Program-made: the position numbers and the translations under genes
The notes under the pieces: generated by a model
Databases searched by the model: none
Seen by the model: the letters and a program-made list of their open reading frames with translations, nothing else
What the model was told of the DNA's origin: nothing
Shown: piece by piece, positions 18,603 to 30,837 of the stretch
How positions within the stretch are numbered: the first letter of the stretch is position 1
Layout: each line of letters starts with the position of its first letter
Assembly (NCBI RefSeq): GCF_000695095.2
Contig: NZ_CP011454.1
Span: forward strand, 992,001-1,056,000
From: Gemmatimonas phototrophica
GTDB taxonomy: Bacteria > Gemmatimonadota > Gemmatimonadetes > Gemmatimonadales > Gemmatimonadaceae
Reading direction: 5' to 3'
DNA: 64,000 bases

Positions 18603-18808
18603 AATACGGCATTCAGCGCTGGCAACGAACTGCCCGCGGGGATCCGCCTGGCGAGCCGGACCCCGGAGGCCCAGGCTCGCAATCAGACAGGGGAACCTAA
18701 CCGGGCGGGGGGGATAGGGGCAAGGAAGGGGCGCGGTCTGTGGCCAATGCGGTCCGGCGCCTAGCTTTGCACCAGCGGCCCCACAGGCCACACCTCATTG
18801 GAGCACCA

Positions 18809-19906
18809 ATGCGCGCGTATCTCGTGCTCGCAACATTCGTGGCCCTCGCCGGTCGTCTCCCCGCCCAAGGCGCCGTCGACACCCTCGCCGCCGTGCGCGT
18901 GGTGGCACCGCGCATGGTCACGCCGCGGGTGATTGCGTCGGTCACGATGGACCGGTTTGAGGGGGGTGCCCCCGTCGAGGGCGTGCGCGATGCGGTGCTT
19001 CTGGGGAAGGAGCAGATCGCCATTGTGGATTGGCGGCATCCGCGGGTGCAGCTGTTCAGTTATACCGGCGAGTTCAAGGGGCGCATGGGACTGAAGGGAG
19101 ATGAGCCCGGGCAGTTTGCGCTACCGTACCGCATGGTGTCGTGTGGCAATGGCAACATCACGGTGCTCGACATTGGCAACCGACTGGTGAACGAGTTCTA
19201 TCAGGATGGCACGCTCCGCTATACGGTGCCGCTGGCGGCGCCGCCGCAATCGTTGGCCTGCTGGCCCAACGGCGAGGCGGTCGGTGTGTTTGTGCGTGCG
19301 GACTCTACGGGGATGCTGCGCGCCAATGTGCGACCGCTCGATACGTTGGACGTGCCGCGGGCGCCACTGCTGAGCGTGCCCGCCGGTGAGGTGCTGCTCA
19401 TGGGCGCGGCCCTGCAACTGGGTGCCTCTCGCTATGGAGTGTGGCACGGTACCGGCGACACCAACACCATCACGTTTCGTTCGTGGCCCACGCTGATTCC
19501 GCGCGAAGACTCGGTTGGCACCAGCGGGCGCCCCACGACCCAACTGCTGAAGCGCGCCGCCATTGAGCAGCTGGCCCGGGAAGCCGATATCCCCACGCGA
19601 GCGCGTGTACAGCTGATGCTCGATCTGCAGAAGGTGCCGACTCGCACAACGCTGCCCGCCTATCGTACGGTTCTGGTGGACAGTGAAAGCCATGACGCGT
19701 GGGTTGTGACCTCGCCGGTGGGCAACCGGCGGCTGGACATCACCATCCTGTCAATCGATGGCCAAAGCCGTCGCACCATTCGCCTCAATGGCTTTGAGCT
19801 GCTGTCGGTGCGCGGCGATGAGGCGCTGGTGGTCGGTGAACGTCTGGCGGATGGTAGCGCGGAGTTGGTGGTGTATTCGGTTGCCCTCCCGTCTCCACCT
19901 CGCTGA
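18809..19906 (+). CDS. Secreted propeller-like protein, function unknown
   Basis: A 365-aa protein with a signal peptide (MRAYLVLATFVALAGRLPAQG, cleavage near AQG). The ATG at 18809 is preceded by ggag at 5-nt spacing. The mature part has repeated beta-strand pairs of the type VQLFSYTGEFKGRMGLKGDEPGQFALPYRM and ITVLDIGNRLVNEFYQDG. These resemble NHL/6-bladed propeller blades as found in many Gemmatimonadota and Bacteroidota secreted proteins. No catalytic motif seen. It stands alone between tRNA-Arg and the RND operon. Confidence 0.8.
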   Translation: MRAYLVLATFVALAGRLPAQGAVDTLAAVRVVAPRMVTPRVIASVTMDRFEGGAPVEGVRDAVLLGKEQIAIVDWRHPRVQLFSYTGEFKGRMGLKGDEPGQFALPYRMVSCGNGNITVLDIGNRLVNEFYQDGTLRYTVPLAAPPQSLACWPNGEAVGVFVRADSTGMLRANVRPLDTLDVPRAPLLSVPAGEVLLMGAALQLGASRYGVWHGTGDTNTITFRSWPTLIPREDSVGTSGRPTTQLLKRAAIEQLAREADIPTRARVQLMLDLQKVPTRTTLPAYRTVLVDSESHDAWVVTSPVGNRRLDITILSIDGQSRRTIRLNGFELLSVRGDEALVVGERLADGSAELVVYSVALPSPPR

Positions 19907-20077: not shown

Positions 20078-21250
20078 ATGTCAATGCTGAACACACGGGG
20101 CGTTTCGGCGGCTGGCACACCGGTTTCAGTCGTTGCGCTCATTGCCATGCTGGCGTGCACCGGGGCGGAAAACACTCCAGTTGATTCGTCCTCCAGCCTC
20201 GAACTTGCCGCCGGCGACCACGTCGATTCCGGTGCCACGGGAACCGTCTTCCTGCCCGTCTCCGCCTTGGAGGCCCGCGATGGCGACCTCATCCTTCGCG
20301 TCAGCACCACCGGCCAGGTACGCTCCGAAGCGGTCGTGCCACTACGCGCTGAGGTGGCGGGTACAGTGGCGCAACTAATCATGCGCGCCGGCGACCAAGT
20401 GGCGGCCAGAACGCCACTCGTGAAGCTCGACCCGTATCCGTTCGATCTCGCGGTACGCGAGGCACAGGCCCGCGCCGACGAAGCGGAGCAGCGCTTTCTC
20501 GAAAGCTATGTGCCGGAGTCTCTGGTCACGGGGCGCGGGCCCACCCCCGAGCAGCGCAAGGCGCTCATGAACAAGTCGGGGCTCACCGGTGGGCGGTTAC
20601 TCCTGGAACGGGCTCGCTACGAACAGGCCCGCGCCGTGGTCACCAGCCCGGTGGCGGGGGTGGTGCAAAGCATTGATGTGGCGGTGGCTGAAAAACTGTC
20701 TGCCGGTCAACCCATTGCCACCGTGGTGGACACGCGCAGACTGCGCGTGGAAGCACAGGTACTGGAGCACGACCTGTCGCTCATACGTGTGGGCGGCGAG
20801 GCCATTGTCACCAGCGCCGGCGCCCCCGACCGGCCGCTGCGTGGACGCGTGGATGCGTTGCTGCCACTGGTGGACAGTGTGGCGCGCTCGGGACGCGCCA
20901 TTGTGCGCCTCACCGGCGATGGCACGCTGCGCCCGGGCATGTACGCCGATGTGCAGCTCGAAGCCACACGCCTGCGCAATCGGCGCCTCGTACCCACACG
21001 GGCGGTCATCGAGCGCGATGGACGCCCGTTGGTCTTCGTGGTGAAGGACGGGCGCGCGCAGTGGACGTACATCGTGCCCGGGCGCAGCAATGGCGTGGAC
21101 ACCGAAGTGCTCCCCGATAGCAGCACCGGCGAAATTCCCGTGAAGGCCGGTGACCCGGTAATTGTGGAAGGGCATCTCACGCTCACCCACGATGCGCCGG
21201 TCAAACTGTTGCCCAAGCCCGACTCACGACCGCGCACGCCTACGCCATAG
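20078..21250 (+). CDS. RND efflux periplasmic adaptor lipoprotein
   Basis: A 390-aa membrane-fusion protein linking an RND pump to an outer-membrane channel. A lipobox-like LIAMLACTG near residue 27 suggests a lipid-anchored N terminus. The family layout is visible: a barrel-sandwich/lipoyl half (VPLRAEVAGTVAQLIMRAGDQV ... YPFDLAVREAQARADEAEQRF), the second lipoyl half (VVTSPVAGVVQSIDVAVAEKLSAGQPIATVVD), a beta-barrel (LRPGMYADVQLEA) and a membrane-proximal domain. The hairpin helix is short. It is followed after 15 bp by the first permease. No TolC-type gene lies nearby, so the outer-membrane partner must be encoded elsewhere. Confidence 0.9.
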   Translation: MSMLNTRGVSAAGTPVSVVALIAMLACTGAENTPVDSSSSLELAAGDHVDSGATGTVFLPVSALEARDGDLILRVSTTGQVRSEAVVPLRAEVAGTVAQLIMRAGDQVAARTPLVKLDPYPFDLAVREAQARADEAEQRFLESYVPESLVTGRGPTPEQRKALMNKSGLTGGRLLLERARYEQARAVVTSPVAGVVQSIDVAVAEKLSAGQPIATVVDTRRLRVEAQVLEHDLSLIRVGGEAIVTSAGAPDRPLRGRVDALLPLVDSVARSGRAIVRLTGDGTLRPGMYADVQLEATRLRNRRLVPTRAVIERDGRPLVFVVKDGRAQWTYIVPGRSNGVDTEVLPDSSTGEIPVKAGDPVIVEGHLTLTHDAPVKLLPKPDSRPRTPTP

Positions 21251-21265
21251 CGCGGGAGACCACGC

Positions 21266-24200
21266 ATGAGTCTCGCCGCCGCTGCTGTTCACCGCCCGGT
21301 TGCTACTGTCGCCGCCATTCTTGCCGTGCTCCTGCTGGGCGCGGTGTCACTCACGCGGCTGCCCGTCTCGCTGCTCCCTGATGTCGCGCTGCCGGTGCTC
21401 ACCGTGCGCACAGTGTACCCCGGCGCCGCGGCCCCCGAAGTGTCGCGATTCGTGGCCGAACCCATCGAGCAGGCCATTGGCGCCACGCCGGGGTTGGTGG
21501 AGCTGCGCAGCGTGAGCCGCAACGGCGAGGCCACCACCACAGCGCGCTTTGCCTGGGGCACCGATATGCGAGCCACCGTGCTGTCGGTGCGAGAACGGCT
21601 CGATGCGTCGCGGGGCGCCCTTCCACAGAAAGCAGAACGCCCCACGCTGCTTACCAGCGACCCCGGTGAGCGCCCCATTGCCGTGCTGGCCATGACATCG
21701 CGCCCCAGCACGGGGCAGGGGCAGGGGGGCGCCGACCTGCGCACACTCGCACGCACCGCCGCCGAGGTACACGCACGACGCCTCGAGCAAATTGAAGGCG
21801 TCGCCAGCGTGGCCGTGGCCGGCGCACCGCGCGACGAGATTCGCGTGAGCGTCGATCCCGATCGACTCCGAGCACTCGGCGTCACCACCGACGACGTCGC
21901 CGAAGCGATCAAGCGGCAGAATGTCACCGGCGCCGGTGGCACCATTCGTCGCGGACAGTTTCGCTTCGCCGTGCGCGCACTCACAGAGTTCCGCAGCGCC
22001 GACGAGCTGCTCGTCACCCCCTTTGGTCCACCACAACGCGGGTTGCTGCTGCGCGATGTGGGTACGGTGCAGCTTGCCCTGGCCGAGCCAGATACACGCA
22101 CACGCCTCGATGGCACCGATGCCGTTGGACTCGTGGTGTACAAGGATGCCGGCGCCAACACGGTGGCGGTCACCTCGCGGCTCATGGCGCAGGTGGCGCA
22201 ACTCGAGCAGGAGTATCCGGGGCTCGCACTCACCGTGGTGGCCGCACAGGCTGATTTCGTCGTCGACGCGCTCTCCAACCTCGGACAGGAAATCGTCGCC
22301 GGCGGACTTCTTTCGCTGCTCGTCATACTGCTCTTCCTGCGCGACTGGCGTTTGTCGCTCGCTATTGGCCTCACGGTGCCGCTGTCGGTGCTCATGGCAC
22401 TCGTCGCGCTGCAGGCGCTTGGCGTGAGCATCAATGTGCTTTCCCTTGGCGGTCTCGCCCTCGGCACTGGCTTGTTGGTGGATACGGCTATTGTGGTGGC
22501 CGAAGCGGTAGGGCGGCGGCGCGACGAAGGCATGCCGCTGCGCGAGGCGGCCGTTACCGGTACCAATGACGTGGCGGCGCCGCTCTTTGCCGGTACGCTC
22601 ACCACGGTGCTGGTGTTTGGGCCCATTGTGTTTGTGCAGGGGCTGGCCGCAGCGCTCTTTCGCGACCTGTCGCTGAGTGTCGTGACCACCGTGGCGGCCA
22701 GCCTGTTGCTCGCGCTCACGCTCATGCCGGTCATGATTGTTGGGCGACGGCGCCGGGAGCCAATGGAGCACCCGGCGCCACACGCTCCACAACCTGCGCG
22801 CAATGGGCGTCTCGACAAACTGGGTGCACGGCTCGCCGCCTCTTATGAGCATGGCATGCGCTGGTCGTTGGCGCATCCGGCGGCGGTGTTGGCCATGGCC
22901 GGTGCGCTGCTCGCGGTCACGGTCGTACTGGTGGCGCGTCTCCCCAAGGAAATTCTTCCCCGCGTGGACGAAGGCGTACTGGTGGCGCAGCTATCGCTGC
23001 CGCAGGGCACCGCGCTCGACGCCACCACTGCACAGGTCGCGCGGCTGGAACGCGCCGCCCGCGCACTCGGCGCGCGCGACGTCTACGCCCGAGTGGGCAA
23101 AGCCACTGACGAAGAAGTTCTCGCCGGCGCCGACCCGGGGTCGAGTGCGTCGGCGCAGCTCATCATTGCCGTACCGGAGAACCGCGACGCGGCGCGCCTC
23201 GCACAGCAGCTCCGTGCCGCGGTTCCTGATCTGACGCAGGGCTCGTTGGCCATTGACCTCGCGGGGCAGTCGGAGTTTGGCGCGCTCATTGGCCGCGAAG
23301 GGAGCCTCGTGCGTGTGGAGCTGTCGGCCGCATCGGCTGCGCTATCGCAACAGTGGAGCGACTCGGTGCGCCAGGCACTGCAGGCGTTGCCCGAGTTGGC
23401 CGATGTGCGAGATGCCTACGCCAGCACCCAGCCGCTGGTGGAGCTGTCGCTGCAACGCGACCGGTTGGCCGAGCGTAACATTGCCCCGCAACAAGTGGTG
23501 AGCGCGCTGGCGGGCGCGCTGGGTGGTGTGCCGGCCAGCGAACTGAGGGAGACAGACCGGCGCACCCCCATTGCCGTGCGCTACGCCGGTGTGGCCAACG
23601 AGAGTCTCGACGCCGCGCTGCGCACGCCGCTCAACGGCGTGCCGCTGTCGCAACTGGTGCAGGTGCGTGAAACGCGTGCGCCACTGGAGGTGGTGCGCGT
23701 GAATCAGCGCCCCGTCAGCCTGGTGGAAGCGCTGGTGGAAAGCGGCGGCACCGCGCGCGCCAATAACGAAGTACAGCGGGTCCTGGGCGCCATGACCTTT
23801 CCACCCGGTATCAGCAGGCAGGTGGGCGGTGCCGACGCCGAACGCGAACGCACCAGCAACGAACTCGTGCTGGTGGCGGTGCTCGCGGCGGCACTGGTGT
23901 TTCTGGTAATCGCCGCCGAGTTCGCAAGCTTTACCATTCCACTGGTGGTGATGCTTACGGTGCCGCTGGCTGGTGCAGGTGCGGTCATTCTGTTGTGGCT
24001 CACGGGACAATCGCTCAACGCGGTGAGTCTCATTGGCATTGTGGTGATGATCGGCATGGCCGATAACGAAGCGGTGGTCAAGCTGGATGCCATACGAGCG
24101 CTGCGGGAGCAGGGCGTACCGCTGCACGACGCCATTCTGCAGGGTGGCGCCAGGCGGCTGCGCGCCATTGCCATGACGAGTATTACCACCATCACAGGCG

Positions 24201-24352
24201 TGTTGCCGCTGGTCTTAGGTTGGGGGAGCGGCGGATCGCTGTATCAGCCGTTGGCAGCTGGTATCATTGGCGGCAGCATTACCGCCTTGCTTGTCACCTT
24301 CTTCCTGCTCCCCACCGCGTATGCGGTGCTGGAGAAGAAGCGCGGTGCATAA
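21266..24352 (+). CDS. RND permease 1 (AcrB/MdtBC-like) with altered proton-relay residues
   Basis: A 1028-aa inner-membrane RND transporter: TM1 near the N terminus, two large periplasmic loops, and TM2-6 and TM8-12 clusters (LLSLLVILLFLRDWRLSLAI, IVVMIGMADNEAVVKL, and others). In AcrB, TM4 holds Asp407-Asp408 and TM10 Lys940. Here the TM4 motif is GLLVDTAIVVAEA (Asp406-Thr407), and the TM10 position equivalent to Lys940 is Asp933 (GMADNEAV). One Asp is therefore retained and the Lys is replaced. The Thr region after TM10 (AMTSITTITGVLPLV) is kept. It is the middle gene of an adaptor-permease-permease operon, a layout like mdtABC. Substrate unknown. Confidence 0.9.
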   Translation: MSLAAAAVHRPVATVAAILAVLLLGAVSLTRLPVSLLPDVALPVLTVRTVYPGAAAPEVSRFVAEPIEQAIGATPGLVELRSVSRNGEATTTARFAWGTDMRATVLSVRERLDASRGALPQKAERPTLLTSDPGERPIAVLAMTSRPSTGQGQGGADLRTLARTAAEVHARRLEQIEGVASVAVAGAPRDEIRVSVDPDRLRALGVTTDDVAEAIKRQNVTGAGGTIRRGQFRFAVRALTEFRSADELLVTPFGPPQRGLLLRDVGTVQLALAEPDTRTRLDGTDAVGLVVYKDAGANTVAVTSRLMAQVAQLEQEYPGLALTVVAAQADFVVDALSNLGQEIVAGGLLSLLVILLFLRDWRLSLAIGLTVPLSVLMALVALQALGVSINVLSLGGLALGTGLLVDTAIVVAEAVGRRRDEGMPLREAAVTGTNDVAAPLFAGTLTTVLVFGPIVFVQGLAAALFRDLSLSVVTTVAASLLLALTLMPVMIVGRRRREPMEHPAPHAPQPARNGRLDKLGARLAASYEHGMRWSLAHPAAVLAMAGALLAVTVVLVARLPKEILPRVDEGVLVAQLSLPQGTALDATTAQVARLERAARALGARDVYARVGKATDEEVLAGADPGSSASAQLIIAVPENRDAARLAQQLRAAVPDLTQGSLAIDLAGQSEFGALIGREGSLVRVELSAASAALSQQWSDSVRQALQALPELADVRDAYASTQPLVELSLQRDRLAERNIAPQQVVSALAGALGGVPASELRETDRRTPIAVRYAGVANESLDAALRTPLNGVPLSQLVQVRETRAPLEVVRVNQRPVSLVEALVESGGTARANNEVQRVLGAMTFPPGISRQVGGADAERERTSNELVLVAVLAAALVFLVIAAEFASFTIPLVVMLTVPLAGAGAVILLWLTGQSLNAVSLIGIVVMIGMADNEAVVKLDAIRALREQGVPLHDAILQGGARRLRAIAMTSITTITGVLPLVLGWGSGGSLYQPLAAGIIGGSITALLVTFFLLPTAYAVLEKKRGA

Positions 24353-24381
24353 GTGCGCGCGATAAACCGGTTGAAGCAGCG

Positions 24382-27300
24382 ATGCGCGCGCTCATAAACG
24401 CCGCCACGCGGCGCCCCGCCGTCATGTGGGCGCTGGCGGTGGCGTTGCTCATGGCCGGCGGCATCGCGTTCACGCGACTGCCGCTGGCCACGCGCACGTC
24501 GGTGGAGCTGCCTCGACTCATGGTCAGCAGTTACTGGCCTGGTGCGTCGCCGGAAGTCATCGAGACATACCTCACGTCGCCCATTGAAGCGGCGGTGCAG
24601 GGAGTGCGCGGCGTGAAGCGCGTGAACAGTACCAGCCGCGACGATGCGTGCATGCTCACGGTGGAACTCGAACCGCGCGCCGATGTGCCGCTCACGCGAC
24701 TCGCCATTCTCGAACGGCTCGAACTGCTGCGGCGAGAACTGCCCCCCGGGGCCTACCAGCCGCAGGTCAGCAACTACGTGCCTGAAGGGCTCGAAGAAGC
24801 GCCGCTGCTCTCGCTCACCATTGGCGGGCCGTACACGCCGGGCACACTGCAGCGGGTGCTCGAGGAACGGGTGCAGCCGCGCCTCGCGAGTGTGCCGGGA
24901 GTGGCCGGTGTGTTTGCGCGCGGAGGTACACAACGCGGTGTATCGGTGAGCTACGACGCAGCGCGTTTACGCCAACTCGGCATTCCCCCCGAACGACTCG
25001 CGCAGGTCGTGGGAGCATCTCGGGTGGTGCAATCGCTCGGCACGCTCAGCCAAGGTGGACGGGTCCGTGCGGTGGTCCTGCACGATGCGCCGGCGGCCAT
25101 TGCCTCGCTCGACTCGCTGCCGGTGGTTGGCGCGGGGGGGCGACGCTTCCGCCTGAGCGAACTGGCGGTGGTACGCGCTGACGAGGATGCGCGTGGCCAG
25201 TTTTTTCGTATTGACGGCCAACCCGCCGTGGCGCTCGACATCACGCGGCATCCGGGAGCCGATGCCATTGCCACCGCCGCAGCGCTGCGCACGGAGATTG
25301 CGGCGGTGCAGGGTACGCTCCCTACCGGAGTACGCCTGGTCATTGCTGTCGACGAAAGCGAAGGGCTCGCGCGTGAACTGAACGATCTCGCCAAACGTGG
25401 GGCGATTGCCACGGTGGCGGTGTTGCTCGTACTCCTGCTGTTTATGCGCCGCGTGCGTGCGGTAGCGGTGGTCATGGGTACGACGTTGGTGGCCATTGGA
25501 GGCACGGCGCTCACGCTCTACCTGTTCGACATTCCGGCCAATCTGCTCACGCTCGCCGGTCTGGGGATGGGCGTGGGTATTCTCGTGCAGAACGCCATAG
25601 TGGTGGTGCAGCGGCTGCTGCGCGAACCCGAGGGCGCGGCGTCCCGCGCCGAGGTGACGTATCGCATGGCGCCGGCGGTGTTGGGAGGTTCGCTCACGAC
25701 GGCGGTGGTCTTGGCACCGTTTCTCTATTTGCAGGGAGATGCTCGCGCCGCGTTTGCACCGTTCGCGCTGGCGTTTGTGATTGCGCTGGGGTGGAGTGTA
25801 TTCACGGCGCTGGTCATGGTGCCGGCGGTGGCCCGTGGGCTGGGCACGATGGCACGTGAAGCGGAGCAGGAGGTACAGGCTTCGCCCACATGGCCACGTA
25901 CCGCGCGCGTGTACGAGCGGGTCATGCTGTTCACCGTGCGCTTTCGCTGGACGACGCGACTCGTTGCCGTGGCGTTGCTCGGAGTGATGACGTGGGGCTT
26001 CGTGGCCAAGGTGCCCAAGTCGAGCTTCGGAAACTGGGGTGAACGGCGCAGCACGCTGTCGGTAGGCGTCACGTTCCCGCGTAGCTCCGACCTGGCCACG
26101 CTCGACGCCGCCCTGCGCGACTTTGAGCAGCTCGTGAGCAATCGCCCGCAGGTGGAGCAAGTGCGGACCAGTGGCGGTGGCGCGAGCGCACAAATGGTGG
26201 TGCGCTTTACGCGCGATGGCGGCATGAGCGCGGAGCCACTCGAACTGCAGGAACTGCTCACGCAGCGCGCGGTGCTGGTGGGTGGCGCGAGCATCTACGT
26301 ATCGGGCGAGGGCCCCGCGTTTTCGAACGGCGGCGGTGGTGGCACCATGTCGAGCTTTCGCGTACAGGTCAAAGGCTTCTCCTACGAGGGCGTCGATAAA
26401 CTCGCCGGTGACCTCAAGTCACGGCTCGAACGCATTACGCGGGTGCGCGACGTGCGTGTCACGAGTGGTGGCTGGTTTGGCGGCGAGCGTGGCTCCCAGG
26501 TGACGCTCGAACCAGACCGCGTGGCGCTCGCGCGATTCGGGCTTACGGCCGAGAGCTTTGTGGCCGCTGTGTCGCGCGAAGTGCGAGGGCCCGTGGGGCA
26601 GCAGCGGCTCGAAATTGGCGGCGAAGAAATGCCGGTAACGGTCAAGGCGAGCGGTGCGCGCGATCGCCCACTTGCCGAACTCGAACGCGCGCTGCTGCCA
26701 TCCATGTCGGGCACGCCGGTGCGCATCAGCGATGTATCGCGCGTGGCCGAACGGGAAGCGCTGGGCAGTGTGGTGCGCGAAGACCAGCAGTACATCCGTC
26801 AGGTAAGCTACGATTTCCGCGGCCCCAACAGGCTCGCGCAGCGCACGCACAAAGCGTTTGTGAAATCGTTGTCGGCACCGGCCGGTTACACCTTCACCGA
26901 TCGCACTGAGGGTGGTTTCGGCATGGACGACGGCAGCCAGCGGGGGCTCTGGCTCGTTTTCGCACTCGGTGTCGTGCTCGTGGTGCTGAGCGTGGCACTG
27001 GTATTCGACAGCATCTGGGGCGCGGCCATGGTGCTGCTCTCGTTGCCGCTCGCGCTGTGCGGCGTGGTGGCCGCCTTCTGGTTCACCGGCGCCGCCTTCA
27101 CTCGCGAGGCGGCCGTGGGCGTCATTCTCGTGGTAGGGCTCTCAGTCAATCAAACCATTCTGCTGGTGGACGCCGCACTCGCTACGCGCAAACGCACCGG
27201 CCCCCTCAGCGCTGAGCAGGTAGTGCACGCCGCGCTCGATCGCGCCGGCATGATTGTGCTGGTCACCTGCACGGCATTGGCGTCGCTGGCACCGCTCAGC

Positions 27301-27465
27301 ATTGGCACCGCTACCAACACGCTCTTTGGCGCCATCGCCCTCGCCACCGCCGGCGGCACAGTGGCCGGCACACTCGGCGTGCTCTTTTTTATGCCGGCGC
27401 TGCTTGTTGGCCGCACCGCGTCGACGCGAACGACGGGGGGAGCTGTGCCTGATCGAGAGAGCTGA
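24382..27465 (+). CDS. RND permease 2, lacking the canonical proton-relay residues
   Basis: A 1027-aa RND transporter starting MRALINAATRRPAV, 29 bp after permease 1. Its overall topology is like permease 1 (VAVLLVLLLFMRRVRAVAVVM, FALGVVLVVLSVALVFDSI). The TM4 motif that is normally VDDAIVVVEN reads ILVQNAIVVVQR (Gln403-Asn404), and the TM10 lysine equivalent is Asn923 (GLSVNQTILLVD). All three charged proton-relay positions are neutral, so this subunit probably cannot translocate protons alone and would need to work with permease 1 as a heteromer (inference). The frame upstream of 24382 overlaps permease 1 and lacks family similarity. An inverted-repeat element starts at its stop codon. Confidence 0.9.
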   Translation: MRALINAATRRPAVMWALAVALLMAGGIAFTRLPLATRTSVELPRLMVSSYWPGASPEVIETYLTSPIEAAVQGVRGVKRVNSTSRDDACMLTVELEPRADVPLTRLAILERLELLRRELPPGAYQPQVSNYVPEGLEEAPLLSLTIGGPYTPGTLQRVLEERVQPRLASVPGVAGVFARGGTQRGVSVSYDAARLRQLGIPPERLAQVVGASRVVQSLGTLSQGGRVRAVVLHDAPAAIASLDSLPVVGAGGRRFRLSELAVVRADEDARGQFFRIDGQPAVALDITRHPGADAIATAAALRTEIAAVQGTLPTGVRLVIAVDESEGLARELNDLAKRGAIATVAVLLVLLLFMRRVRAVAVVMGTTLVAIGGTALTLYLFDIPANLLTLAGLGMGVGILVQNAIVVVQRLLREPEGAASRAEVTYRMAPAVLGGSLTTAVVLAPFLYLQGDARAAFAPFALAFVIALGWSVFTALVMVPAVARGLGTMAREAEQEVQASPTWPRTARVYERVMLFTVRFRWTTRLVAVALLGVMTWGFVAKVPKSSFGNWGERRSTLSVGVTFPRSSDLATLDAALRDFEQLVSNRPQVEQVRTSGGGASAQMVVRFTRDGGMSAEPLELQELLTQRAVLVGGASIYVSGEGPAFSNGGGGGTMSSFRVQVKGFSYEGVDKLAGDLKSRLERITRVRDVRVTSGGWFGGERGSQVTLEPDRVALARFGLTAESFVAAVSREVRGPVGQQRLEIGGEEMPVTVKASGARDRPLAELERALLPSMSGTPVRISDVSRVAEREALGSVVREDQQYIRQVSYDFRGPNRLAQRTHKAFVKSLSAPAGYTFTDRTEGGFGMDDGSQRGLWLVFALGVVLVVLSVALVFDSIWGAAMVLLSLPLALCGVVAAFWFTGAAFTREAAVGVILVVGLSVNQTILLVDAALATRKRTGPLSAEQVVHAALDRAGMIVLVTCTALASLAPLSIGTATNTLFGAIALATAGGTVAGTLGVLFFMPALLVGRTASTRTTGGAVPDRES

Positions 27466-27587: not shown

Positions 27588-28001
27588 CTACTTATGCGAC
27601 AACGTCCACACGTACGCCGAGACGGCGGTGATTTGCGTGTCATTGAGGTTCATGCGTCCGCCACGGGCGGGCATGGCGTTGGGCCGGCTCGCCACCTTGA
27701 ATTTGTCCTTCGGCACACCGCTTACGATGATTGCCCGAATTTCTTCAAAACTGCCAGTGGTGAGCTGATCCCACTGCGTGTCGGCGAGCACCGGGCCGTT
27801 CGCGGCACCAACGCCCTTGGCGCCGTGGCAGCGCATGCAGCCGCCGTTGTTGAAGAGCGAATCACCCAGCGCGACAGCGGCCGGCGTGACCTCGGGCGGC
27901 GTAACGATTTTGGCGGCCGTGCCAGCGCCGGTCGCACCAGCACCACCCGAGCGGCAGGCGGCAAACACCAGCAAAAGCGAGAGTGCAGCAAGTGAGCGCA
28001 T
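27588..28001 (-). CDS. Small mono-haem cytochrome c lipoprotein
   Basis: A 137-aa class I cytochrome c: one CMRCH haem-binding site, a downstream Met ligand candidate in NAMPARGGRMNL, and helix 5-like ITAVSAYVWTLS. The N terminus MRSLAALSLLLVFAACRSG carries a lipobox (FAAC), so the protein is probably anchored to a membrane on its periplasmic face. It would shuttle electrons, but no oxidase or dehydrogenase partner adjoins it. The start at 28001 is chosen for the signal peptide; the 40 upstream in-frame residues look non-coding. It is divergent from the gene at 28106. Confidence 0.9.
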   Translation of the reverse strand: MRSLAALSLLLVFAACRSGGAGATGAGTAAKIVTPPEVTPAAVALGDSLFNNGGCMRCHGAKGVGAANGPVLADTQWDQLTTGSFEEIRAIIVSGVPKDKFKVASRPNAMPARGGRMNLNDTQITAVSAYVWTLSHK

Positions 28002-28105
28002 GAGAAAACGGCTGATGGTGGGTAAAGGGGTGCAGCCGAACCGGACCGCAATGTCCGTCAGCGGTAAACGTGCATCCACTTGGCCGACATCGCTATTTTT
28101 CAACC

Positions 28106-28969
28106 ATGACAGCCATTGCATATCTCGGAACGGGGCTGCTGGGTAGCGGCTTCGTGGAGGCCGCGCTCGGTCGCGGCGACAGCGTCACGGTCTGGAACCG
28201 CACTCGTGAGAAAGCCGAGGCGCTCGCCGCCCTTGGCGCCACCGTGGCAGACACCCCGGCAAATGCCGTACGCGGCGCCGAACGGGTACACCTCGTACTC
28301 AAGGACGACGAGGTGGTGGAAGAGATCGTGGCCGCCCTGCGCCCCGGACTCGGCGCCAACGCCATCATCTGCGACCACACCACCACGCAGCCGGCGCTGA
28401 CGGCCGAACGGGCCCAGCGGCTCAATGCCCAAGGGGTGCACTATCTGCACTGCCCTGTGTTCATTGGCCCCGCCGCAGCGCGTCTGGCGCAGGGGATCAT
28501 CATGGCCAGCGGCCCCGAGGCGCTCTTTGCCCAGGTCAAGCCGGCGCTGGAGCAGCAGGCCCAGAAGGTGGTGTACTGGGGCGAGCGTTCCGATCTCGCG
28601 GCGGCCTACAAGCTGATGGGCAACGCCTTCATCATTGGCCTGGGCGCGCTGGTGAGCGATGTGTTTACGCTCGCGGCCGGCAGCGACGTGTCGCCAGCCG
28701 ACTCCCTCAAGCTGCTGGAATTTTTCAACCCCGGCACCATGCTGCAGAACCGGGGCAAAAAGATGAGCGAAGGCGATTTTGCGGCGAGCTTCGAGCTCAC
28801 CATGGCCCGCAAGGACTTACGACTGATGCTCGAAACCGCCGGTGCTCGGCCCCTTGCGGCACTGCCCAGCATTGCCGCGCGCATGGACGAAGTGATTGCG
28901 CAGGGGCACGGGGCCGAGGATTTCGGCGTAATTGCGCGCGATGCCGTTACGGCCGCGCGGGTCCCATGA
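28106..28969 (+). CDS. NAD(P)-dependent beta-hydroxyacid dehydrogenase family protein
   Basis: A 287-aa protein of the 3-hydroxyisobutyrate/6-phosphogluconate dehydrogenase-like family. It has an N-terminal Rossmann fingerprint (IAYLGTGLLGSGFVEAAL), VWNRTREKAEAL (Asn-Arg-Thr after the second strand suggests NADPH), LKDDEVVEEI, CDHTTTQPALT, CPVFIGPAAARLAQGIIMASG and the catalytic lysine helix AAYKLMGNAFI. The usual DAPVSGG substrate motif is replaced by CPVFIGP, so the substrate may differ from hydroxyisobutyrate (imine or aldehyde reductases are possible). Start at 28106 by family alignment. Confidence 0.88.
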   Translation: MTAIAYLGTGLLGSGFVEAALGRGDSVTVWNRTREKAEALAALGATVADTPANAVRGAERVHLVLKDDEVVEEIVAALRPGLGANAIICDHTTTQPALTAERAQRLNAQGVHYLHCPVFIGPAAARLAQGIIMASGPEALFAQVKPALEQQAQKVVYWGERSDLAAAYKLMGNAFIIGLGALVSDVFTLAAGSDVSPADSLKLLEFFNPGTMLQNRGKKMSEGDFAASFELTMARKDLRLMLETAGARPLAALPSIAARMDEVIAQGHGAEDFGVIARDAVTAARVP

Positions 28970-29129
28970 TGTTCTTCGTGAAGAGCGCGATGGCAACGGC
29001 GATAATCGCGATCTGACCAATCGGACCGACGGCAAGCACCACCTGGAAGATCGACGAGATCAGGAGGAGCGGAAGCTTGATGATCGGCAGCAGGAAGTCG
29101 GCGTTGGCCGGATGATCGAAGAACGGCAT
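28947..29129 (-). CDS. Small membrane protein, two predicted helices
   Basis: A 60-aa frame: a short polar N terminus (MPFFDHPANAD), then two hydrophobic segments (FLLPIIKLPLLLISSIFQVV and IGQIAIIAVAIALFTKNIM). It is not a mirror image of a neighbouring gene except for 23 bp of 3' overlap with the dehydrogenase. The clean two-helix pattern supports it; no ribosome site is evident. No family recognised. Confidence 0.6.
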   Translation of the reverse strand: MPFFDHPANADFLLPIIKLPLLLISSIFQVVLAVGPIGQIAIIAVAIALFTKNIMGPARP

Positions 29130-29283
29130 TGGCGGGGGCTGGTTAAGGGTCCGGGGCGAAAGCTACAAGCCACAGGGGGCAAACTGCAGCCCCGGGCCGG
29201 GGGTTCCGTATCGCCGGTCGGCCGGCCCGATATTCGAACGAATTCCCCTCTTCCGGTGTCCAAGGGATAGTGTCCTACATCAC

Positions 29284-30837
29284 GTGCCAGCCCTAGCCGA
29301 CATCCAGCGTCATCTTGGTGACGATTTCACCCTTGAGCGGGAGCTTGGGGGTGGGGGCATGTCACGGGTCTACGTGGCACACGACAAGCGGTTGGACCGT
29401 CGGGTGGCCATCAAGGTCTTGCGCCCCGAGCTGGCGGCCGGGGTGAGTCTGGAGCGGTTCCGGCGGGAAATCCGCCTGGCGGCGTCACTCCAGCACCCGC
29501 TCATCGTGCCAGTGCTGGACACGGGAGAGATTGACGGCCTGCCGTACTTCCTCATGCCGTTTGTGGAGGGGGAGTCGCTGCGCACCCGGCTGTCGCGTGG
29601 GCGGCTGTCGGTGGTGGACACGGTGCGTATCCTGCGCGACGTGGCCCGGGCTCTGGCGGTTGCGCACAGCCGCGGGGTGGTGCACCGCGACATCAAGCCG
29701 GACAATGTGCTGCTGGCCAACGATGCGGCGGTGGTGGCGGATTTTGGCGTGGCCAAGGCCTTTGCCAACGCCCGTCACGGGGGGAGCGGTGAGTACCCAA
29801 CGGGTATCGCGCACACCACGGAAGGGGTGTCGCTGGGCACCCCCGCCTACATGGCGCCGGAGCAGGTGGCCGCCGATCCGCAGGCATCGTTCCCCATTGA
29901 TCTGTACGCCGTGGGGGTGCTGGCGTACGAGATGCTCACCGGGGCGCCGCCGTTCACGGGGCGCCCGCCGCAGCAGATTATGGCGGCGCACATCGCCGAG
30001 AAGCCGGTACCGGTGCAACAGCAGCGCGCCGATATCCCGCCGGCTCTCGCCGGCCTCATCATGCATTGCCTGGCGAAGGATCCGGCCCAACGCCCGGTGA
30101 ATGCGGCGGCGCTGGTGGAAGCGCTCGAGGACCCGCAAATGATGAGCGGCAGCTTTACCCCCATCGCTGATGATGGCAGTGGAAGCGAAGCGTTGCGCGT
30201 GCTCACCGGTGGTCAGCCGCGGATGCCGGCGCGCACGGGGGCGGGAAAGGTGCGGGCGTGGATGGCTGTGGTGGGGGCCTGTCTGGTGGCCGCTATCGGG
30301 TGGTGGGCGGGGCTTCGTGAGGGAGAGGCCATTGTCAGCGGTGCCGCCGACAGCACCACGTTGGCGGGAGTCGCTGCTCCCGACACGATGCCCAGCGTGG
30401 CGGTGTTGCCGTTTGTCTATCTCAGTGCGGATACGTCGCAGGCCTTTGCCGCACAGGCCATCACCGAGGCCATCACCGATGCGCTCACCCGCGAGCGCGG
30501 GCTGCGTGTGCATTCGCGCGCGGCCTCAGAGGCACTGCAGCGGCGGCTGGCGGCGGGCGATACCGCGCGGGTTCCGGTGCGCACCCTGGTGGAAGGGGTG
30601 GTGGAAGTGCAGGGCGAGCGCGTGCGGCTCACGGTGCGATTGGTGGACGCGCGTGATGGCTTTACGCTGTTCGCCGACCGGCTGGAGGGAACCCGGGACA
30701 ACTTGTTCGCCATGGAAGACGATGTGGCGACCGCGATGCGCGACCTGCTGCGCTCGCATTTTCAGCTCCCGGCGGCGGCCGACGGTGACAGTCGAACGAG
30801 CAGCGCGCAGGATTCCTCGGGGAATCGGTTCCAATAG
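29284..30837 (+). CDS. Membrane Ser/Thr protein kinase with periplasmic TolB-like domain
   Basis: A 517-aa Hanks-type kinase starting at GTG 29284. Cytoplasmic kinase domain: Gly loop GGGGMSRVYVA, catalytic lysine VAIKVL (about 44), HRDIKPDN (about 133-140), ADFGVAKA, and GTPAYMAPEQ with the DLYAVGVLAYEM helix. A single transmembrane segment follows (AWMAVVGACLVAAIGWWAGL, about 324-343). Outside is a ~150-aa domain (PSVAVLPFVYLSADTSQAFAA, then EGVVEVQGERVRLTVRLVDARDG). That pattern is known from adenylate-cyclase-associated/TolB-N-like domains in Gemmatimonadota and Acidobacteriota kinases. It probably links an envelope signal to phosphorylation. No phosphatase lies nearby. Confidence 0.93.
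   Translation: MPALADIQRHLGDDFTLERELGGGGMSRVYVAHDKRLDRRVAIKVLRPELAAGVSLERFRREIRLAASLQHPLIVPVLDTGEIDGLPYFLMPFVEGESLRTRLSRGRLSVVDTVRILRDVARALAVAHSRGVVHRDIKPDNVLLANDAAVVADFGVAKAFANARHGGSGEYPTGIAHTTEGVSLGTPAYMAPEQVAADPQASFPIDLYAVGVLAYEMLTGAPPFTGRPPQQIMAAHIAEKPVPVQQQRADIPPALAGLIMHCLAKDPAQRPVNAAALVEALEDPQMMSGSFTPIADDGSGSEALRVLTGGQPRMPARTGAGKVRAWMAVVGACLVAAIGWWAGLREGEAIVSGAADSTTLAGVAAPDTMPSVAVLPFVYLSADTSQAFAAQAITEAITDALTRERGLRVHSRAASEALQRRLAAGDTARVPVRTLVEGVVEVQGERVRLTVRLVDARDGFTLFADRLEGTRDNLFAMEDDVATAMRDLLRSHFQLPAAADGDSRTSSAQDSSGNRFQ

Follow-up and report, generated by a model that had tools for sequence, protein, structure and literature searches.

Two questions about RND trimers are raised by an operon of Gemmatimonas phototrophica that encodes two RND permeases, here called P1 and P2, side by side: how many of the protomers need to take up protons, and whether the handling of substrate and the conversion of energy can be shared out between subunits. 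They are jointly inherited neighbours, and one of them, P2, is without the membrane acid that harvests proton energy, whereas P1 retains it. This suggests a pump of two parts, only one of them doing the powering. As a natural pair in which one member seems to have lost its protonation site once, with the loss kept across a bacterial order, P1 and P2 make both questions testable. From the sequence evidence set out below, we consider it probable (roughly 0.6) that the two permeases make up a heteromer, with P1 taking up protons and P2 being driven passively. Such a heteromer is of interest because it conflicts with the result for the covalently linked AcrB trimer, in which a single inactive protomer is enough to stop the pump working (reviewed in PMC8277102).

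The operon and its relay positions

We analysed a window of 64,000 nucleotides (the whole stretch of DNA, to which all coordinates refer) within a complete 4.72 Mb genome (G000). The adaptor-permease-permease operon described in an earlier note on this window was recovered, in the order adaptor, P1, P2, with all three genes on the (+) strand. The adaptor (20078..21250, 390 aa) is a periplasmic protein of the RND membrane-fusion family, with matches to PF16576 (1e-22), PF13437 (1.4e-18) and TIGR01730 (137 bits against a cut-off of 94.9). In the Pfam and NCBIfam searches, P1 (21266..24352, 1028 aa) and P2 (24382..27465, 1027 aa) both matched PF00873 over their full length, with 686 and 446 bits, respectively, against a cut-off of 28 bits. 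A heavy-metal efflux (CusA/CzcA) assignment was rejected, as TIGR00914 gave 377 bits for P1 and 194 bits for P2 against a cut-off of 701. The likely start of P2 is the ATG at 24382, 29 nt past the P1 stop; a longer frame from 24220 in the mechanical ORF list begins inside P1 and starts too early. The operon contains no outer-membrane factor gene, and about 11 OEP proteins are encoded elsewhere in the genome. On the 5' side of the adaptor lies an ORF of 388 aa (18740-19906) with no Pfam or NCBIfam match, which adjoins the operon in one relative only (L077) among those searched. The genes on the 3' side (27588-30837) encode a cytochrome c, a 3-hydroxyisobutyrate-dehydrogenase-like protein and a Ser/Thr kinase; they are retained next to the operon in several genomes of the genus and not in the wider family.

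Structure prediction gave monomer models with TM-scores to AcrB/AcrD/OqxB protomers of about 0.84 for P1 and about 0.82 for P2 (pLDDT 80.7). As modelled, both are full AcrB-type protomers, and the porter domain of P2 is complete. Foldseek ranked AcrB chain-B protomers at the top for P2; this ranking was set aside, since similar chains were returned for P1 and monomer models leave the conformational state unsettled.

We then mapped the relay columns by aligning P1 and P2 with AcrB, MdtB, MdtC and CusA. Conservation of P2 refers to 69 distinct sequences of its own clade (the Q clade), of which 67 cover K940 and 66 cover TM11; a sister clade (the D clade) is described below. In TM4, P1 carries Asp406-Thr407 (22481..22486) at AcrB D407/D408, as the earlier note had read, and Asp occupies the D407 column in every covering P1 orthologue. 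The same note had placed an Asp of P1 at the Lys940 position, and here the alignment disagreed: the ungapped TM10 motifs of P1 and AcrB (GMADNEAVV and GLSAKNAIL) set Asp933-Asn934-Glu935 (24062..24070) against A939/K940/N941, so the K940 column holds Asn934 and Asp933 lies one residue off, D933 and E935 flanking it. D939 and E/D941 are present in 38/38 Q-clade P1 partners, as compared with D939 in 6/19 D-clade P1 sequences; another count of D939 in P1 (62/62) was discarded as circular, its rows having been selected by this very residue. The AcrB residue at the position of E935, N941, has been described as belonging to the proton wire (PMC5719797). P1 also keeps Thr971 (24176..24178), the counterpart of AcrB T978, which hydrogen-bonds D407 (PMC8277102), and has Arg964 at the R971 column; all P1 partners have T/S at 978 and Arg at 971.

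The corresponding sites of P2 are neutral. Gln403-Asn404 (25588..25593) stands at D407/D408, and Asn923 (27148..27150) stands at K940, both as first reported. Among the orthologues, Gln407 is invariant (69/69), position 408 is Asn in 61/69 and Asp in 8/69, and position 940 is Asn in 57/67 and His in 10/67. Mapping TM4 and TM10 against AcrB, MdtB and MdtC upheld these substitutions and revealed a further lost relay residue, T978, the hydroxyl partner of D407, which is replaced by Val961 (27262..27264; V in 60/66, I in 6/66). Arg954 (27241..27243), at the R971 column, is kept in 66/66, and M974, at the position of AcrB P974, is found in 66/66. P1 contains the TM4 GX3DX6E motif with its protonatable D407 (GLLVDTAIVVAE) whereas P2 does not (GILVQNAIVVVQ), its RND membership being assigned by homology and fold. 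A survey of the P2 TM helices found no compensating charge in the membrane core, with titratable residues near the helix ends only; P1, by contrast, bears D406 plus D933, E935, K939 and D941 in TM10. The genome encodes nine full-length RND permeases, and P2 is the only one without Asp at the D407 column. Nearby in TM4 (25609-25614), Gln stands in for AcrB E414 in this P2, whereas 55/69 orthologues have Glu/Asp there, and the next position, 415, is Arg, as in 67/69 orthologues, where the D clade has Asn.

Conservation and origin of the neutral site

By whole-genome search, close orthologues of P2 are present in 28/30 genomes of the genus and in 54/179 of the family, with an identity gap from about 55% to 28% separating them from other RND proteins. 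The earlier note had asked whether the substitutions are conserved in homologous pairs; within the clade of P2 they are, with Gln407 in 69/69 and V/I978 in 66/66. A decaying or mis-sequenced P2 might be suspected from its faster divergence relative to P1, and we give this explanation almost no weight. Gln407 is invariant across many independent assemblies, and the frames are open in nearly all of them. When the window is compared with two close relatives, dN/dS comes to about 0.08 for P2 and about 0.07 for P1, so that, by these sequence comparisons, purifying selection acts on P2 with its Gln in place. Against a more distant relative (L042) the values are 0.24 and 0.15. Sequencing error and pseudogene status were therefore rejected. 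P2 homologues with an intact acid, proposed beforehand as a sign of error or decay, were indeed found (22 D-clade sequences). They make up a sister clade of their own, however, and that argument does not apply because Gln is invariant within P2's own clade.

These relatives also bear on the origin of the site. In orthologous pairs elsewhere in Gemmatimonadota, the TM4 motif is VDN and the TM10 motif VVNN or VVND in both permeases. In our tree, all Q-type P2 sequences fall into a single clade whose sister is D-type P2, and the P1 clades mirror the split; the tree was built by a quick method and has long stem branches and an uncertain root. Because both permeases of the orthologous pairs carry D408N and K940N, these two changes are most likely ancestral to the permease pair. 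Pumps with a single Asp are also common in the AcrB-like family, where K940 loss tends to accompany D408 loss (PMC5719797). The simplest reading of the sequences is thus that D407 alone is newly lost, by one change to Gln at the base of the Q-type P2 clade, and T978 was lost in the same transition. The claim that all three relay charges are gone from P2 holds for the residues themselves and was overstated as an event in P2, since two of the charges were already absent from the wider pair. Single-Asp pumps resemble P2 in missing D408 and often the TM10 lysine, but they retain D407, the last protonation site.

The D-clade pairs (L084-L102) share with the Q clade a two-permease operon and a homologous adaptor, and in the tree their P1 groups with P1 and their P2 with P2. 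They differ in that both permeases have D407 and mostly T978, and in that a TolC-type gene lies beside the operon, usually between adaptor and P1, in 19/21 loci; none was found when 40 Q-clade loci were inspected, the adaptor being within reach in 31 of them. A scan of genome contigs with two short peptide patterns found Q-type P2 only in Gemmatimonadota or in apparently mis-binned contigs, although one scan with two short patterns does not establish its absence outside the phylum. Two contigs (L151, L160) with Gemmatimonas-type P1/P2 genes come from a MAG, HRS-HS12-bin-7, that bears the label Candidatus Kuenenia stuttgartiensis; this bin is probably mislabelled or mixed.

In several Q-type P2 sequences (L061, L067, L031/L054, L140), Asp is present at 408, having arisen in at least three separate parts of the tree, and wherever both positions are covered it occurs only with His940. 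Positions 408 and 940 therefore seem to be still functionally paired, and D408-His940 is possibly a secondary Asp-His pair. This pattern, the retention of R971 in 66/66 P2 and the report of a sodium-dependent RND pump, VexF (PMC10924465), would agree with P2 using a different relay, built on the polar Gln/Asn (at times Asp408/His940) site and Arg954, perhaps with Na+ or some other ion. We regard this as improbable, as most P2 sequences, that of the window included, combine N408 with N940 and have no titratable group there, T978 is gone in all P2, and the sequence gives no sign of a cation site. SecDF, whose relay uses a TM4 Asp and a TM11 Arg and not a TM10 Lys (PMC8277102), resembles P1 in this respect, but has another domain architecture and function, and P2 is without the Asp.

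Pairing of P1 with P2

Every locus of sufficient length has the adaptor, P1 and P2 genes next to one another, and P1 and P2 distances correlate across 38 loci (r=0.91), which would also be expected from shared vertical descent alone. The gene order recalls the MdtABC and MuxABC bicomponent pumps, and this part of the earlier comparison stood. The orthology did not: NF007798/NF007905 scores were far under the cut-offs, and MdtB and MdtC each retain D407, D408 and K940 in the alignment. Since in the tree MdtB groups with MdtC, apart from P1/P2, the P1/P2 pairing arose separately. As a precedent, MdtBC is described as a bicomponent pump assembled as a heterotrimer, and unequal permease roles are reported in MdtBC/MuxABC-type pumps, with one permease providing proton coupling (PMC4338810). 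Relay mutations are reported to disable MdtBC more when they lie in MdtB than when they lie in MdtC, the permease to which substrate binding is assigned (PMC4338810, PMC10924465).

Adjacency in all reaching loci, parallel divergence and the MdtB2C precedent together point to a heteromer. The pairing of one energised with one non-energised subunit, one of two options raised at first, is the best supported by the sequences, as P1 always has D407/R971 and P2 never has D407/T978, in genes that are adjacent and diverge together. By analogy, the division between P1 and P2 is most likely a fixed, more extreme form of the MdtB2C split of labour. We infer a physical heteromer and its stoichiometry, a P2 that takes no proton, the substrate, and an outer-membrane partner from elsewhere. 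The adaptor would serve a single RND assembly of the inner membrane, probably a heterotrimer, that contains both permeases. Its P1 protomers would bind and release protons at the lone TM4 Asp, D406, helped by Thr971/Arg964 and perhaps by the acidic TM10 residues D933/E935. The TM4/TM10 site of P2 would not be protonatable and would be held by its neutral Gln/Asn polar residues, while P1 neighbours would move P2 through its conformations. P2 may contribute mainly substrate binding or exit-channel structure, and an outer-membrane partner encoded elsewhere in the genome would be used. Given D408 in 8/69 P2, some P2s may be partly titratable.

The complete porter domain in the P2 model, set on an acid-free membrane core, could also suit a separate P2 homotrimer that is no longer proton-driven (a passive conduit, substrate acceptor or regulator), with P1 homotrimers doing the pumping. 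P2 diverges about 1.27x as much as P1 within the Q clade and 1.08x as much in the D clade, which would suit this reading. To our knowledge, passive RND conduits are not established, and strict adjacency, a phylogeny matching that of P1 and the heterotrimeric MdtBC precedent (PMC4338810) all speak against it, so we consider the homotrimer unlikely.

Returning to the heteromer, the linked-AcrB result means that a dead P2 subunit would need a different cycle. It is conceivable, and we put this forward tentatively, that the assembly is an obligate hetero-RND pump, in which the P2 subunit type has permanently lost proton coupling, the energised P1 has fixed extra TM10 acids (D939, E941), and fewer protons are used per cycle. 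If true, this pump would break the linked-AcrB rule that every protomer be active. A literature search of partial coverage turned up no earlier account of a paired operon in which an RND permease has a conserved neutral residue in place of D407. As an analogy only, the transporter class being unrelated, heterodimeric ABC exporters in which one nucleotide site is degenerate, such as TM287/288, likewise pair homologous subunits of which one has a non-canonical energy site. Variation in locus content was seen in two genomes: one (G053) has two copies of the Q-type pair (L045, L046), and in another (G206, L103:11470-15776) a second adaptor and an MdtB-like DD/K-type permease lie directly 3' of the Q-type pair.
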